A stretch of 56,177 nt of DNA, taken from positions 1 through 56,177 of the forward strand of contig ONLH01000019.1 of the NCBI GenBank assembly GCA_900318645.1, given 5' to 3'. A program made the position numbers and the translations under genes. Positions 4,492 through 55,537 of this stretch are shown one piece after another. The DNA comes from an uncultured Prevotellaceae bacterium. Its GTDB lineage: Bacteria > Bacteroidota > Bacteroidia > Bacteroidales > Muribaculaceae. The stretch's first letter is position 1; the number at the start of each line of letters is the position of its first letter. Below the pieces are notes generated by a model. It was not told the DNA's origin. It saw only the letters and a program-made list of their open reading frames with translations, and ran no database searches.

Positions 4492-5250
4492 TTAGAAGGC
4501 GGTGACGATACCCATGAAGTCGCCGGCCTTCAACGAGGCGCCGCCGATGAGGCCGCCGTCGATGTCAGGCTTTGCGAACAGTTCGGGGGCGTTGCTGGGT
4601 TTGCAGCTGCCGCCGTAGAGGATGGTCATGTCGTCGGCTACCTGTGCACCGTACTGGTCAGCCAGCAGGCCACGGATGAAGGCGTGGATCTCCTGTGCCT
4701 GGTCGCTCGTGGCGGTCTTGCCAGTACCGATGGCCCAGATAGGCTCATAGGCGATAACGATGTTGGCCATCTGCTCAGCGGTCAGGTGGAACAAGGAGTC
4801 ACGGATTTCGGCACCGATGACCTCCTTGAACGAACCATTCTCGCGCTCCTCCAGGCTCTCGCCGCAGCAGAAGATCACCTTCAGACCGTTTTCCAGCGCC
4901 AAGTCAACCTTGGTCTTGAGCATCTCATAGCTCTCGTTGTAGTAACCACGGCGCTCGCTGTGACCCAGGATTACGTAGTTGGCACCTGTCGATGCAACCA
5001 TAGCGGCAGAAACCTCACCGGTGTAGGCACCGCTGGTGTGGTCGGCGCAGTTCTGAGCAGCCAGGCCTACGTTAGCGTCGCCGATGACCTCCTTAACAGC
5101 CATCAGGTGGGTAAAGGGAACGCCCATGATGACTTCACACTTCAGGTTAGCCTCTGCAGCAACAGCGGCACACACGTCCTTAGCGAGCTGTACGCCTTCG
5201 GGCACGGTGGTATTCATCTTCCAGTTGCCCGCAACAATGTTCTTTCTCAT
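4492..5250 (-). CDS. tpiA: triosephosphate isomerase
   Basis: Interconverts dihydroxyacetone phosphate and glyceraldehyde 3-phosphate in glycolysis; cytoplasmic dimer. The 252-residue length is normal. All catalytic elements are visible: NWKMN with Lys11, GHSERR with His97, and [11 protein letters not shown] with Glu169, followed by the phosphate-gripping loop 6 and the C-terminal GGSCKPSNA and GGLIGGASL phosphate loops. It is a single gene with its own promoter at 5299-5306 and a long hairpin downstream. Confidence 0.98.
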
Positions 5251-5298
5251 TTTTCTGTTATTCAGTTAAAACAATAAAAGTGATTTCATTCAATGCCA

Positions 5299-5306
5299 CA
5301 AAGGTA
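5299..5306 (-). promoter_or_regulatory. Bacteroidetes promoter (tpiA)
   Basis: Minus strand TACCTTTG with a TTTG -33 box 20 bases upstream (GTTTGACG). The leader to the tpiA ATG is about 45 bases. Confidence 0.7.
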
Positions 5307-5398
5307 CAATGTTTTGTTGAAATCGTCAAACAACAGTCTTCTGATTTTTCAAACAACTAGGATAACTTGTGAACAATAGTTACAGCATCTTATTGTAT

Positions 5399-6112
5399 TC
5401 ATTGGGGGTGGTGGAGGAACTCCATGATGGCGCTGGGTTGGTCGTCTATGGCGAGGGAGACAATGTAGCCGTCGTCGATGGGGTAGAGGGTGGGGGTGAG
5501 CTGGTCGCCCAGTTTGGCGGCAATGCGGTACTCCACGTGCATGTCCTGGACCTCGAAGCCCTCTGGCAGCAGTTCCATGGCGATGCGTACGTAGTTAGCG
5601 TTGTTCATGTGCCGGTTGTAGTCGATGTCGGCTCGCATGACCTCGACGGGCTCCAGCACGGTGCCGTCCTGCTTGGGCAGGATGATGCGTCGGCCGCGGT
5701 AGTTCATCTCCTGTTTGGCCTCGAGGGTGAGCGATGCGATGGCGTCTTCGGAGAGCCGGGCGAGTTTGCCCGTGGCAAGATCGACAAAGGCGCCCATGCT
5801 CCATGTTCGGTAGCAGGGTTGACCCTGGGCGTCGCAGATGAACGTGTTGCGGAAGCCGTACATCGGCAATACCTCATAGATGGACGTGGTCACCGACAAG
5901 TCCTCCTTGAAGCGCGGCACACGCACGACTTCGACTTGGCGTGTGGCGAGAAGTTGCGTCATGTTGTTGTCGTTGAAGAACTTACGTGCCGTTGGCTCGC
6001 TGTCAATCCACATCTCGGAGCAGTCCTGCATCATCTGCAGGGCCGAGTAGAGTTTCAGTTTCCCCTCGCTGTCGCAGCAACTGGTAGTCACTTTATAATT
6101 GAGTGTGTACAT
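5399..6112 (-). CDS. acyl-ACP thioesterase
   Basis: Hydrolyses acyl-ACP to free fatty acid, ending fatty-acid chain growth in the cytoplasm. The 237-residue protein has two hotdog domains like plant FatA/FatB and bacterial homologues. The second contains the catalytic signature ADIDYNRHMNNANY (residues 161-174), matching the D-x-N-x-H-x-N-N block, and the first has the substrate-proximal YRTWSMGAFVDLATG. In Bacteroidales such enzymes release medium or branched fatty acids. It is transcribed alone, with a -7 box about 35 bases upstream. Confidence 0.92.
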   Translation of the reverse strand: MYTLNYKVTTSCCDSEGKLKLYSALQMMQDCSEMWIDSEPTARKFFNDNNMTQLLATRQVEVVRVPRFKEDLSVTTSIYEVLPMYGFRNTFICDAQGQPCYRTWSMGAFVDLATGKLARLSEDAIASLTLEAKQEMNYRGRRIILPKQDGTVLEPVEVMRADIDYNRHMNNANYVRIAMELLPEGFEVQDMHVEYRIAAKLGDQLTPTLYPIDDGYIVSLAIDDQPSAIMEFLHHPQ

Positions 6113-49253: not shown

Positions 49254-51182
49254 TTAATGTTGTCTTTGTTGTCTGACGGTTTGGATATAGTTGTAAAGTT
49301 GTTTGTAGAAGGGGTGACGAGTTAGGGTGGGGGCGTCGCCCAGGATGAAGAGTTTCATGCGGGCACGAGTCATGGCGACATTCATGCGGCGTAGGTCGCG
49401 CAGGAAACCGATTTGGCCCTTGTCGTTGGCTCTCACCAGCGATATAAGGATGACATCTCGCTCCTGACCCTGGAAGCCATCGACCGTGTTGACCGAGATG
49501 AGGTGGCGGAAGGGCTTGAAGAAAGTGCGTTTCTTGATTAGGCGCTTGAGGTATTGCACCTGTGCGCGGTAAGGCGAGATGATACCCACGTCGATGCGGT
49601 CGTCAAGGATGCGCTGCTTGCCGATGCGCTGGAAATAGATTTGCAGCAGGCTGATGGTCAGGTCTGCCTCGCCCTTGTTGACGCGGCCGAAGGTCTCCCC
49701 GACAAATTGTTCCTTGAAGTTGTCCTTCTCATCCTCGCCGAGCTCAATCTCGGAGGTGTCAAACCACAGGATGGGCGCATCGCCCTCGTGAATCAGGCGG
49801 TGTGCCACCTCGGGAGCCGACCTCATCTTGCCATGATAGAAATAGTCGCTGCTGAATTGCATGATCTCGTCGTTCATGCGATATTGCACCTCGAGTAGCG
49901 AGACACACTCGGGTTTGTTCTCGACGATACGTTCCATGAGTGTCTTGCCCAGGCCGCCCTTCAGCGCCTCGAGGCTCTTGACTGTGGGCGGCAGTTGGCA
50001 ATGGTCGCCGGCAAAGATTACGCGGCTGGCGCGACGGATGGGAATCCAGCACGCCGCTTCCAGGGCTTGGGCGGCTTCGTCAATAAACAGGGTGCTGAAG
50101 CGTTTGCCGTCCAGCAGCTTGTTGCCTGCTCCCACGAGCGTCGAGGCGATGACGCGCACCTGACCGAAGATGTCGGCATTGATGCGTACCTCGAGTTCGA
50201 CCGCCAATTCCTTGAGGCGATTGAGTTTCTGGTGGAAATGCTCGCCCGACTCGCGGCGGCGACGTCGCATCTCGCGCATGTTGCGCCTCACCTGCCACAA
50301 CTTGGGATAGTCGGGGTGGTCGGCGAAACGGTGCTCATAGGTGAAACTCAGCATCTTGTCGTTGACGCGTGTGGGGTTGCCCAGGCGCAGGACCGGAATG
50401 CCACTGTCCACCAGTTTCTCGCTGATCCAGTCCACTGCTGTGTTGCTCTGGGCGCACACGAGCACCTGCGTCTCGCGCATCAGTGTCTCGTTGATGGCCT
50501 CGACAAGCGTCGTCGTCTTGCCTGTGCCCGGAGGACCATGCAGTACGAGCACGTCCTTGGCCCTGAGTACCTCGTTGACGGCGCGCTCCTGGCTTGGGTT
50601 GAGCCACGGGAAGCGTATCGCGTCAAAGCCGAAAGCCTCGGCATGCTGGTGCGAGTAGAACAGGTCGCGCAGGTAGGCGAGGCGAGTGCCCTTGGCGTTC
50701 ATGACGCGCTCCAGGGCATCAAACATCATGCGGTAGCTTGTCTCGTCGAAGAACAACTGCACGCCCACGGGCTGCTGTGCGTTCTGCAGTTCCAGCGTGT
50801 GGCCCTCGGGTATGGCGACGACCATACGATTACCGTCAACAAACGAGACGCTCCCCGTGAAGCCATAGTAGTGAATGTGCCCCGCCTGCTTCAAGTCGCC
50901 GGCAGGGGCCTCGGCATTAAAGAACACCACAGGCTTGCCGTACTCAAAGTTGTGGTCTATCTCCTCGTCGCCCTGGCGGGTCACCTCGATGCAGAATTGG
51001 TTGAGCGAGTTGTAATAGGTGCGTCCCACATGCAGCGGGAACCAGGCATCGCCGCGTGTCACCTTGCGCGCTAGCCCCATCGACTCGCTGTGCAGACGAT
51101 AGGCTTCCTTCTCCTCCTGGTATTCCACCTGGAGCAGGTGCCGCTGCTGTTGCAGTTGTACTATGGCTGACGCGTGACTCAT
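49254..51182 (-). CDS. UPF1/IGHMBP2-like superfamily 1 helicase
   Basis: 642-residue nucleic-acid helicase. The N-terminal about 200 residues form the accessory beta-barrel region typical of this group. Walker A is GPPGTGKTT (about 215-223), followed by AQSNTAVDWI (motif Ia), DEAAQALE (motif II, about 366), GDHCQLPPTV (motif III), VQYRMNDEIMQFSS (motif IV), TVDGFQGQERDVILISLVR (motif V) and NVAMTRARMKLFILG (motif VI). All motifs are intact, so it should be active on RNA or DNA. Its cellular role in Bacteroidetes is not established. Confidence 0.93.
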   Translation of the reverse strand: MSHASAIVQLQQQRHLLQVEYQEEKEAYRLHSESMGLARKVTRGDAWFPLHVGRTYYNSLNQFCIEVTRQGDEEIDHNFEYGKPVVFFNAEAPAGDLKQAGHIHYYGFTGSVSFVDGNRMVVAIPEGHTLELQNAQQPVGVQLFFDETSYRMMFDALERVMNAKGTRLAYLRDLFYSHQHAEAFGFDAIRFPWLNPSQERAVNEVLRAKDVLVLHGPPGTGKTTTLVEAINETLMRETQVLVCAQSNTAVDWISEKLVDSGIPVLRLGNPTRVNDKMLSFTYEHRFADHPDYPKLWQVRRNMREMRRRRRESGEHFHQKLNRLKELAVELEVRINADIFGQVRVIASTLVGAGNKLLDGKRFSTLFIDEAAQALEAACWIPIRRASRVIFAGDHCQLPPTVKSLEALKGGLGKTLMERIVENKPECVSLLEVQYRMNDEIMQFSSDYFYHGKMRSAPEVAHRLIHEGDAPILWFDTSEIELGEDEKDNFKEQFVGETFGRVNKGEADLTISLLQIYFQRIGKQRILDDRIDVGIISPYRAQVQYLKRLIKKRTFFKPFRHLISVNTVDGFQGQERDVILISLVRANDKGQIGFLRDLRRMNVAMTRARMKLFILGDAPTLTRHPFYKQLYNYIQTVRQQRQH

Positions 51183-52929: not shown

Positions 52930-52937
52930 TATATTTG
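52930..52937 (+). promoter_or_regulatory. Bacteroidetes promoter (radical SAM operon)
   Basis: TATATTTG with TTG (ATTATTGTTCATTAG) 19 bases upstream. The start site would fall a few bases before the microprotein ATG at 52952, so that small frame is the first in the transcript. Confidence 0.65.
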
Positions 52938-52951
52938 CAGTTGGAAATGAA

Positions 52952-53044
52952 ATGGCCATATTGATGCTTATTCTTTCTGCAGCTATTTTGGCTATCGGCT
53001 ATGTGATTAACAGAACAGCTACTCAGTATCATACTAAAACTTAA
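52952..53044 (+). CDS. 30-residue membrane microprotein
   Basis: Reads MAILMLILSAAILAIGYV, then about 12 polar residues (NRTATQY and following), then TAA. The first 18 residues form one hydrophobic helix; the tail is polar and slightly basic. It is too short for routine gene calling. Two things support it: it lies 14 bases after a good Bacteroidetes -7 box and ends five bases before the radical SAM start codon, filling the leader exactly. It may be a membrane anchor, a partner of the enzyme, or a leader peptide. I know no named family for it. Confidence 0.5.
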   Translation: MAILMLILSAAILAIGYVINRTATQYHTKT

Positions 53045-53049
53045 CAATC

Positions 53050-54150
53050 ATGAACGTGCACCAACAGCAACAATTGGAGAAGACTCGCAATTACGTGGAA
53101 CGCCTCAGGAGAGAGCACCCCTTGCAGGATCTGTTTTGGGAATGCACCCTGCGCTGTAACATGGCCTGTCGGCATTGCGGGAGTGACTGCCTCAAGGAAT
53201 CCATGGTGCCCGATATGCCCTTTGCCGACTTCGTGCCGGTGCTGGACGAGGTGGCGGCCCATTGCGATCCCAGGCAGGTGATGGTGCAGACTGTGGGCGG
53301 CGAGCCTCTGGTCAGGTCCGATCTGATGGATAGCGGACGTGCTATCCGTGAACGGGGCTTCACGTGGGGACTTGTTACCAATGGCCTGATTCTGGATCGA
53401 TCCTTAGCCCGCGAGATGGCCCAAGCGGGTATCAATTCTATAGCCCTTGACGTGGACGGCATGCGTGAGGAGCACAACTGGCTCCGCAATTCAACGGTCA
53501 GTTTTGATGCCACCATGCGGGCTATCGAGGCGGTGCAGACCATCCCGGGGCTCACCTGGGACGTCATCACCTGTGTAAACGGCCGCAATCTGCCGCGGCT
53601 GGATGAAATCAAGCAACTGCTCATCGAGGCTGGCGTTACCAACTGGCGCTGCTTTACCATTGACCCGATGGGACGCGCAGCACGGGACAAGAGCCTGCTG
53701 CTCAACGATGAACAGTTCCGCGACTTGCTCAACTTCATCGTCACCACCCGCATCGAGGGGAAAATCAACATGAGCTATGCCTGCGACGGGTTCCTGGGCG
53801 CCTACGAGGGGCTTGTTCGCGACTACTTCTTCTACTGCCAGGCGGGACTCACCGTCGCCAGCGTGCGAGCTAACGGTGACATATCGGGTTGCTTGAGCAT
53901 CCGCAGCGACTACAGTCAGGGCAACATCTACCGTGACAGCTTCTGGGACGTGTGGGAGAACCGCTTTGAGCAATTCCGTGACCACGAGTGGATGAAACGC
54001 GGTGCGTGCAAGGATTGTGAGGCCTTTCGCTATTGTCAAGGTGACGGTTTCCACCTGCGTGACGGCAATGGCGACCTGATGATGACCTGCCACTACAATC
54101 AACTCAAGAATGTTAGAATTCAAGATTCTAGTGCGGAAAAACCACTTTGA
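53050..54150 (+). CDS. radical SAM/SPASM maturase
   Basis: 366-residue iron-sulfur enzyme expected to modify a peptide or protein by radical chemistry. The radical SAM cluster motif is Cys36-x3-Cys40-x2-Cys43 (RCNMACRHCGSDC), with TVGGEPLVRSDL and ALDVDGMREEHNWLR in the barrel. The C-terminal SPASM region binds auxiliary clusters: Cys263, Cys281, Cys320-x2-Cys323-x5-Cys329 and Cys347, with GNIYRDSFWDVWENRF between. The sequence resembles the Bacteroidetes radical SAM group paired with lipoproteins (TIGR04133-like). Here the partners are instead two proteins sharing a common N-terminus. Second gene of the operon starting at 52930. Confidence 0.9.
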   Translation: MNVHQQQQLEKTRNYVERLRREHPLQDLFWECTLRCNMACRHCGSDCLKESMVPDMPFADFVPVLDEVAAHCDPRQVMVQTVGGEPLVRSDLMDSGRAIRERGFTWGLVTNGLILDRSLAREMAQAGINSIALDVDGMREEHNWLRNSTVSFDATMRAIEAVQTIPGLTWDVITCVNGRNLPRLDEIKQLLIEAGVTNWRCFTIDPMGRAARDKSLLLNDEQFRDLLNFIVTTRIEGKINMSYACDGFLGAYEGLVRDYFFYCQAGLTVASVRANGDISGCLSIRSDYSQGNIYRDSFWDVWENRFEQFRDHEWMKRGACKDCEAFRYCQGDGFHLRDGNGDLMMTCHYNQLKNVRIQDSSAEKPL

Positions 54151-54217
54151 AATCTTGAAGTTGAGAACTTATAGTTTAGAATTTATATTTTATTAAAAAA
54201 CTAAACATTTTAGCATG

Positions 54218-54853
54218 ATGAAAGAAAAAAACAAAGGAAAAAAGACGCTCGCCGCTGTGGGGGCCGTGGTTGCTGCCGGGCTCACACCTGGCATCGTTGC
54301 CTCTACTCCCCAATGTGCACCCATTCCCGATCCCAATATTGAATTAACAGCTGCCGACGTAGTCGCCATCGGTGGCACAGCTTACAGTTTTGACGAATTA
54401 TATGCCATGCAACGTGGGGACACTGTGGATGTGCAAGTAGGGCTGCCTGAAATCCAAGTTGAATCATTTCCATATGCTACAAGGTATGGCGCTCTCTTAA
54501 TTTCACCCTCTTTTGACAAGGCTGATGGAAATAAAAACACTGTCTATCGTAGCGTTGAGCAGATGCCCCGGTTCCCTGGTGGCGAGGCCGCACTGATGAA
54601 GTATCTCGAATCTCATATCAATTATCCATCCGAGCCAGCCAAGAACAAGATAGAAGGTCATGTCATTGTACAGTTTGTTGTGAAAAATGACGGTAGTATA
54701 GGTGAGGTGAAGGTTGTCCGCTCGCTGGAAAAGGACCTCGACAAGGAGGCCATCCGCGTTATCAAGTCGCTGCCCAAGTTCACCCCTGGCCGTCAAGATG
54801 GTAAAGAGGTGAGCGTATGGTACACGCTGCCCGTGAAATTCAAGCTGAAATAA
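54218..54853 (+). CDS. shared-leader protein with TonB C-terminal domain
   Basis: 211 residues from the second of two adjacent ATGs (54218; the first is 54215). Residues 1-66 are the segment shared with the next gene: basic MKEKNKGKK, hydrophobic LAAVGAVVAAGLTPGIVA, then TPQCAPIPDPNIE with Cys33, AADVVAIGG and YSFDELYAMQ. The hydrophobic part could be a signal peptide. Residues about 105-211 are a TonB_C fold (PRFPGGEAALMKYL, GHVIVQFVVKNDGSIGEVKV, FTPGRQDGKEVSVWYTLPV). It starts 67 bases after the radical SAM gene. Possible substrate of that enzyme; this is inference. Confidence 0.78.
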   Translation: MKEKNKGKKTLAAVGAVVAAGLTPGIVASTPQCAPIPDPNIELTAADVVAIGGTAYSFDELYAMQRGDTVDVQVGLPEIQVESFPYATRYGALLISPSFDKADGNKNTVYRSVEQMPRFPGGEAALMKYLESHINYPSEPAKNKIEGHVIVQFVVKNDGSIGEVKVVRSLEKDLDKEAIRVIKSLPKFTPGRQDGKEVSVWYTLPVKFKLK

Positions 54854-54937
54854 GCAAAAATAGGAACGACCAAAGGGCATTAAACCCTAATGAGGTATTC
54901 GAGTCTAATAATTAAAAACACTCTGAACGCCATAATT

Positions 54938-55537
54938 ATGAAGAAGGACAAAAATAAAGGAAAAAAGTCAATCGCTGCGGTGGGTGCCGTGGTTGCTGTC
55001 GGGCTCACGCCAGGCATCGTTGCCGCTACTCCCCAATGTGCGCCCATTCCCGCTCCCAATATTGAAGTCACCGCAGCCCAGGTGGTCGCCATCGGCGGCA
55101 ATACTTATAGTTTTGACGAATTATACGCTATGCAACAACGTGACGACTCGCAGGGGCGTCCAACGATAAGCCATCAATATTCTGGAGGATCAAGGTATGG
55201 TGTGATACGCCCTCAACAACGCCCTGTGCCGCCTCAGAAACCCGTTATCGTCATTGAAGCGGTGGAAGGCTTAGACACGATTCAAGCGGGCCTCTTGGAA
55301 TATTGCACCAAACTGCTTGATACAGACTTCTATACCAGAGGTGTCATCATTTCACTTGACAGAGACTTGACTCGTGAAATAGGAATGAATGATCGCCAAT
55401 TAAAAGAGCTCAAGGCATTCATCGAGGACTACTATGGCGTGGAAGTGTCCTACCACCGATTCAGCCTCAACGGCCAGCTCAACACCTTGCGCCTCATCTC
55501 ACATTACATCTTCAAGATAAAAACCGTCTGGGACTAA
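54938..55537 (+). CDS. shared-leader protein with ACP-like C-terminal domain
   Basis: 199 residues starting MKKDKNKGKK; an upstream ATG at 54890 would add 16 residues and break the match to the neighbour. Residues 1-66 match the preceding protein at 53 of 62 compared positions (by my count), including Cys34 in TPQCAPIP. A short Pro/Gln linker follows (RPQQRPVPPQKPVI). The last about 75 residues, with ISLDRDLTREIGMNDRQLKE and IEDYYGVEV, follow the helix pattern of an acyl carrier protein, but an Asp stands where the phosphopantetheine Ser would be. Fold assignment is tentative. Last gene of the operon. Confidence 0.72.
   Translation: MKKDKNKGKKSIAAVGAVVAVGLTPGIVAATPQCAPIPAPNIEVTAAQVVAIGGNTYSFDELYAMQQRDDSQGRPTISHQYSGGSRYGVIRPQQRPVPPQKPVIVIEAVEGLDTIQAGLLEYCTKLLDTDFYTRGVIISLDRDLTREIGMNDRQLKELKAFIEDYYGVEVSYHRFSLNGQLNTLRLISHYIFKIKTVWD

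Follow-up and report, generated by a model that had tools for sequence, protein, structure and literature searches.

A TIGR04133 radical SAM/SPASM maturase and two leader-sharing partner proteins with a linker Tyr-Gly motif: a probable two-substrate maturation operon in an uncultured Prevotellaceae bacterium

The window analysed here, 56,177 nucleotides of contig ONLH01000019.1 from an uncultured Prevotellaceae bacterium, carries an operon encoding a radical SAM/SPASM enzyme of family TIGR04133 (P0001) and, downstream of it, two proteins (partners A and B) that begin with the same leader and end in different C-terminal domains. This is probably a two-substrate maturation operon, in which P0001 would work as a stand-alone, splicease-like maturase on an Arg-Tyr-Gly (RYG) in the linkers of its exported partners. 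The gene arrangement, the co-occurrence of leader and enzyme in the host genus and the conservation of Tyr-Gly (YG) were all observed. The four open reading frames (ORFs) that an earlier note on this DNA had assigned to one operon were each found in place, and the locus comprises the following features:

52930..52938, + strand: candidate promoter, -7-like box TATATTTGC, kept at equal distance in the closest relative locus, L210
52952-53044: ORF of 30 residues
53050..54150, + strand: P0001, TIGR04133-family radical SAM/SPASM maturase, 366 residues (TIGR04133, PF04055 and PF13186 matches)
54215..54853, + strand: partner A (P0002), 212 residues, shared leader, RYG linker and TonB_C domain (PF03544; leader identity to partner B)
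54215..54412, + strand: leader of partner A, with Lys-rich start, hydrophobic segment and TAADVV...G motif (alignment of 33 leaders)
54482..54490, + strand: predicted modification site of partner A, Arg90-Tyr91-Gly92 (YG in 33/33 aligned partners)
54938..55537, + strand: partner B (P0003), shared leader, RYG linker and predicted degenerate acyl carrier protein (ACP) fold (AF2 model, PDB matches, PF00550 relatives)
54938..55135, + strand: leader of partner B (same alignment of 33 leaders)
55193..55201, + strand: predicted modification site of partner B, Arg86-Tyr87-Gly88 (both Tyr and Gly invariant across the 21 ACP-type partners)

Partner B was counted as 199 residues from its second ATG (54938); the listed ORF has 215 residues and begins at 54890.

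A YG dipeptide lies between residues 56 and 150 in every one of 33 aligned leader-bearing partners, which were chosen by hand, and it reads RYG in both partners A and B. Sixteen of these proteins contain two copies and four contain three. The residue preceding YG varies over the 57 sites (R 14, K 12, M 11, L 7, V 7, others 6). For the sequence context of the site, a copy of YG with x-Pro behind it was taken first wherever one existed, so that the Pro count in this set reflects selection; the unbiased count is the 73 of 104 neighbour proteins described below. Seven columns do not vary among the 21 ACP-type partners (mean column identity 33%): T45, A46, A47, V50, G54, Y87 and G88. Nine of ten additional leader-bearing ORFs also contain YG, the tenth being a truncated 90-residue copy in L192. 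An extra YG in the folded domain of partner B (around residue 166) is not followed by x-Pro and was not counted as a site. One partner in L203 (5865-6527) carries ATRYGVPRP, TTKYGVPRP and TTMYGVPRP in tandem, and YGVPRP-like repeats are also found in L201 (8015-8695); these units look as if the site had been multiplied. Degenerate copies, KYAAP and RYSKP, are seen in L195 and L206.

The same motif marks the neighbours of TIGR04133 enzymes well beyond the leader-bearing proteins. From 100 TIGR04133 regions (29 from a family sample and 71 from an order sample), 97 fetched loci were read together with the window, giving 98. L120, L134 and L139 were left out as no enzyme ORF was obtained, although L139 has YGxP partners on re-inspection, and L191 was retained although it falls below the TIGR04133 cut-off. 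A close neighbour, defined as a protein of at most 350 residues encoded on the same strand within 70 nt of the enzyme, is present in 87 of the 98 loci. At 82 of these 87 a close neighbour contains YG, against a shuffle expectation of 29.4, and YG ranks first of the 400 dipeptides among neighbours (z 11.9), followed by MK (10.5) and AC (10.2). The longer motif YGxP was found at 73 of the 87 loci compared to 16 of 333 genes located at least three places from the enzyme.

Relaxing the start and distance rules rescued ten of the 16 remaining loci (L110, L182, L188, L119, L095, L100, L131, L094, L157 and L140) and raised the loci with a YG partner to 92 of 98; the relaxed rule reaches 900 nt, and its control counts come from a set of 26 further loci. 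This set was taken from 45 loci by leaving out 19 near relatives and appears to be partly shared with the first set (L211, L218), so that it is not an independent replication. A YGxP ORF lies near the enzyme in 23 of the 26, including that of L229, which falls within a GyrB-like ORF and is probably there by chance. For comparison, the reverse strand gave 2 of 26 and shifted windows 4 of 45. Altogether 104 neighbour proteins were collected, 87 with YG and 73 with YGxP. When eight residues round each YG were masked, these proteins fell into 34 BLAST groups (E 1e-3), of which 21 have a member with YG and 15 a member with YGxP. The occurrence of YGxP in 15 mutually dissimilar groups indicates that the site outlasts other sequence similarity. 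After masking, the leader proteins form a group of 16, apart from a lipoprotein group of 49. Very short proteins with CVYGPPP are encoded just upstream of the enzyme in L098, L108 and L100 (54 and 63 residues, and a 97-residue frame in L100), those of L098 and L100 with a hydrophobic C-terminal stretch; all three are predicted minimal partners.

The association of the leader with the enzyme, for which the earlier note had asked, holds within the host genus. A leader profile gave 74 matches in 48 of its 101 genomes, and 70 of them, spread over 46 genomes, follow a TIGR04133 gene on the same strand at a distance of 27-2962 nt. The enzyme is found in 64 of these genomes (80 rows, one a fragment), and 46 of the 80 rows have a leader match downstream. 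Six of the 34 rows without a leader were read (L107, L113, L114 and L116-L118), and short VYGPP proteins were found upstream of the enzyme in each. In wider samples, a single leader used as query matched 2 of 295 genomes of the order at E<=0.01, one of them weakly. Of 198 genomes of the family, 28 have TIGR04133 and 16 a leader match (E<=0.05); ten of these 16 belong to the host genus, and the other six have E>0.005. Leader matches outside the genus at E>0.005 were rejected as noise, some of them containing stops or lying within other genes. The four leader matches lacking a linked enzyme fall in two genomes, G568, where the match is at a contig start, and G531. The leader is thus not widespread in genomes without a radical SAM gene, G531 being the sole true exception.

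The near identity of the two N-termini, reported earlier, was borne out: the first ~69 residues of partners A and B are 81% identical (E 2.2e-33). Two more leader matches in the 3.6 Mb host genome, at E 0.06 and 0.5, were considered noise. Residues T45, A46, A47, V50 and G54 are invariant in the 33 aligned leaders. The hydrophobic stretch has mean Kyte-Doolittle values of 2.0 and 2.2 over 18 residues and, with the Lys-rich start, suggests export. Lipobox-like Cys residues, judged by the lipobox consensus, occur in the leaders of L101, L103 (second copy) and L104, and would fit a descent from lipoprotein partners. The proposal of a shared leader on unlike cargo beside a SPASM maturase is supported, and so is the co-occurrence of this leader with the enzyme. 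The part of that interpretation which placed the target at the single cysteine of the TPQCAPIP segment is not supported, since Cys is present within residues 1-75 of just 12 of the 33 aligned partners, compared to YG in 33 of 33 linkers.

The C-terminal domains do differ, as had been noted. Partner A ends in a TonB_C domain (PF03544, 79.9 bits, residues 134-211), and partner B gave no Pfam match at E<=1. The alignment divides the 33 partners into 12 TonB-type and 21 ACP-type proteins; among the former, Pfam was run on partner A only. In the AlphaFold model of P0003 (AF2; 14 rows; mean pLDDT 67), residues 108-198 are helical, with helices at 108-129, 152-166, 172-175 and 184-198 (block pLDDT ~78-94). 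Residues 71-103 are mostly below pLDDT 50, and the linker is predicted to be mostly disordered. All 50 PDB entries listed for this model were of ACP type, with probability 0.99-1.00; the best E value was 3.3e-3 and none reached 0.001. By title they are acyl or peptidyl carrier proteins, together with complex I and MmpL5/EmbC entries, whose small matched chains are presumably ACP subunits. As modelled, the C-terminal domain of partner B has an ACP fold. Five of ten related partners scanned pass PF00550 (cut-off 20.8 bits), namely L103 (45.3), L106 (48.3), L110 (38.8), L104 (25.4) and L101 (21.7); the L201 partner exceeds the cut-off of DUF1493 and not that of PF00550, the remaining four exceed neither, and the L106 partner also exceeds the TIGR00517 acyl_carrier cut-off. 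The Asp-Ser phosphopantetheine site is absent from partner B, which has Asn-Asp there. Asp-Ser is kept in leader-YG-ACP proteins of L103 (first copy; 5083-5655), L106 (5424-6014) and L110 (1134-1778), and each of these may be a functional carrier protein joined to a leader of export-like type.

P0001 scored 489.1 bits against TIGR04133, above the curated cut-off of 425, and is therefore a member of this family; PF04055 (70.2 bits) and PF13186 (37.3 bits) also matched. Its second-best NCBIfam family was TIGR04103, the nif11-class maturase 3 that we take to be PlpX, and the GDL maturase TIGR03913 scored 103.7 bits (cut-off 591.75). Among solved structures the enzyme matched three radical SAM proteins, all of them distant (best E 7.8e-12). 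Of 295 genomes sampled from the order, 61 encode an enzyme above the TIGR04133 cut-off. The family is classed as 'hypoth_equivalog' and its name, rSAM_w_lipo, assigns no function. A literature search with TIGR04133, TIGR04134 and the model names found no papers, and we do not claim that the splicing idea is unpublished. A replicon search with the enzyme returned TIGR04133 pairs and, in addition, a radical SAM gene of Agathobacter, the one neighbour of which that was read has no YG.

Excision at Xaa-Tyr-Gly has a precedent. PMC11002830 describes PlpX (IPR026482) as removing tyramine from Xaa-Tyr-Gly together with PlpY, a truncated RRE. According to PMC10533398, PlpXY cuts out the equivalent of tyramine at YG (natural sites MYG and LYG, loss of 135.0757 Da); its tags include PIRPGYGLPI and GGPIRPGYGLPI, and just two FtsZ placements of GGPIRPGYGLPI-type tags were accepted. 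For the present operon we infer YG as the modified site, together with the reaction, the export and a possible part in protease inhibition or tethering. The leader would serve as a recognition and export segment to which the enzyme binds in the cytoplasm, and the linker Xaa-Tyr-Gly, RYG in both partners, would enter the active site. There the Tyr would be modified, most likely by excision as tyramine, with the TonB_C and ACP-like domains riding as cargo. The ketoamide so formed may serve to inhibit proteases or to bind amines. Published spliceotides are described as protease inhibitors in PMC11117315, which hints at a role.

For the family as a whole, we give an even chance to the view that TIGR04133 enzymes are stand-alone spliceases, widespread in Bacteroidales, which remove Tyr (as tyramine) from exported envelope proteins, the leader of this operon having been re-used to present different folded domains to one such enzyme. 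Lipoproteins, TonB-like and carrier-like proteins of gut and rumen bacteria would then carry alpha-keto-beta-amino acids, and proteins with an edited backbone would be frequent in the envelopes of Bacteroidales from these habitats. A leader able to act on folded domains would also be useful for placing ketoamides in proteins. The conserved xYGxP of the neighbours gives a family without assigned function a testable predicted site.

Several points weigh against this reading of the operon. The reaction itself is a prediction. P0001 scored 126.2 bits against TIGR04103, far from its cut-off of 725, and the heme b synthase model gives 120 bits, barely below that score. In the enzyme tree TIGR04133 forms a separate clade on a long branch, and the Nostoc TIGR04103 enzyme groups with Azospirillum GDL and Aureibacter enzymes. 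This tree, in which long branches are present, shows no particular tie between TIGR04133 and TIGR04103; membership of the PlpX family is consequently not claimed, only that P0001 would work like PlpX, and the link to spliceases comes from the substrate motif more than from enzyme kinship. Inspection of the listed ORFs brought up no PlpY-like gene, no RRE profile having been run. Six of the 98 loci have no YG neighbour (L097, L145, L148, L152, L190 and L172), L145 having just ~200 nt of contig upstream. The YG neighbours L103U, L165D and L189U and those of the L153D group are probably not partners. Before masking, the 104 neighbours fall into 24 BLAST groups (E 1e-3), the two largest of 55 and 17 members, so that common descent accounts for much of the YG conservation and inflates the z-score. 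Furthermore, 18 of the 87 YG neighbours (e.g. L178, L180, L184) read ACYG; here the Cys at X resembles that of a lipobox, and splicing would change the lipidated residue. Finally, G531 has two leader genes with KYG (L296 5254-6540) and no enzyme ORF there, and its genome gave no TIGR04133 match at E<=1e-60; it is a natural case of enzyme loss. These leader genes follow a helicase-like gene resembling that at 49254-51182 of the window.

P0001 might act on YG by a chemistry other than tyramine excision (Tyr crosslink, hydroxylation, decarboxylation or epimerisation). Conservation of YG is independent of the type of reaction, P0001 falls short of the TIGR04103 cut-off and shows no tie to that family in the tree, and the mycofactocin maturase treats Tyr differently according to PMC8326336. 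However, X varies, Tyr and Gly are fixed and x-Pro is often next, a pattern also seen in the tags of PlpXY and in the Nostoc precursor described below, and we regard another chemistry as rather unlikely. It is improbable that YG is merely a recognition or structural motif, the modified residue lying elsewhere, in the leader, at a Cys or at the following Pro. The invariant leader residues and the Pro of YGxP in 73 of 104 neighbours would suit such a site, but YGxP is common to neighbours of 15 separate groups and the proposed Cys is found in 12 of the 33 leaders. A further reading, that the neighbours are not substrates at all and that the operon is a co-regulated set whose enzyme makes a small molecule, would suit G531, which retains partners without the enzyme, and the role of the partners as substrates is a prediction. 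This reading appears very improbable, as 70 of 74 leaders are linked to the enzyme and unlike neighbours share YGxP. Modification of the linker YG by a splicease-like P0001 is the reading that we prefer.

The host genome is a 3.6 Mb draft. Its nearest relatives are uncultured Prevotellaceae/Muribaculaceae assemblies, several of rumen or foregut origin, and the enzyme of L210 (ONJS01000020.1) is 97% identical to P0001. The single promoter proposed for the operon is represented by one candidate, the TATATTTGC box matched in L210, which we liken to the Bacteroidetes -7 promoter type; sigma-70 promoter and terminator scans of the locus were no better than shuffled sequence, and folding tests did not exceed shuffles either. 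The 30-residue ORF had been put forward as a membrane peptide of the system. In L210, where the DNA is nearly identical, 28 of its 30 residues match, with TTG in place of ATG and a different stop. For each of L192-L209, the region preceding the enzyme gave no more than 8 matching residues out of 30, and some relatives carry other short ORFs at this place. As a functional part the peptide is not supported. A search of plasmid DNA with the locus gave a single match, covering 12%.

Among the closest known systems is the TIGR04133/TIGR04134 (lipo_with_rSAM) pair, which shares the enzyme family and an adjacent, exported-looking partner with xYGxP. The Parabacteroides distasonis (WP_036633130.1 with WP_005853865.1) and Treponema saccharophilum pairs each include a lipoprotein above the TIGR04134 cut-off, with CEYGSP and SCYGMP respectively. 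The latter pair lies outside Bacteroidota on plasmid pTS1 (L262 2592-4068), adjoining a serine recombinase gene, which suggests horizontal transfer. Unlike these lipoproteins, the present partners are encoded downstream of the enzyme, begin with the KNKGKK...TAADVV leader, hold YG in a linker ~85-90 residues in and end in TonB_C or ACP-like domains. The view that they differ from the lipoproteins stands for their sequences, which form a separate BLAST group and gave no match to TIGR04134 at E<=1, but not for the YG site, which is common to both.

GDL maturases (TIGR03913) with DUF1843 peptides have a related SPASM enzyme, that of Azospirillum grouping with Nostoc TIGR04103, and differ in using short peptides without the leader-domain architecture. 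LYG or PYG is found near the start of two of three DUF1843 peptides beside the Azospirillum maturase (L312 528-1243) and of one of three beside the related Aureibacter radical SAM gene (L264 2144-2857), hinting that this system may use a YG site too. In PlpXY/TIGR04103 systems the substrates are again encoded beside a radical SAM/SPASM enzyme. The Nostoc plasmid TIGR04103 maturase, used as a positive control (853.1 bits), adjoins a Nif11 precursor ending in IALYGLPPELF (core LYGLPP) and a downstream 71-residue protein; two other precursor-type genes at this locus have no YG. P0001 differs in falling below the TIGR04103 cut-off, its partners gave no match to Nif11/NHLP-type leader models of NCBIfam at E<=1, and its predicted substrates are proteins of ~200 residues with folded domains. 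Common to both systems are the Xaa-Tyr-Gly substrates, with x-Pro following YG in the Nostoc precursor as well as in the tags used with PlpXY.

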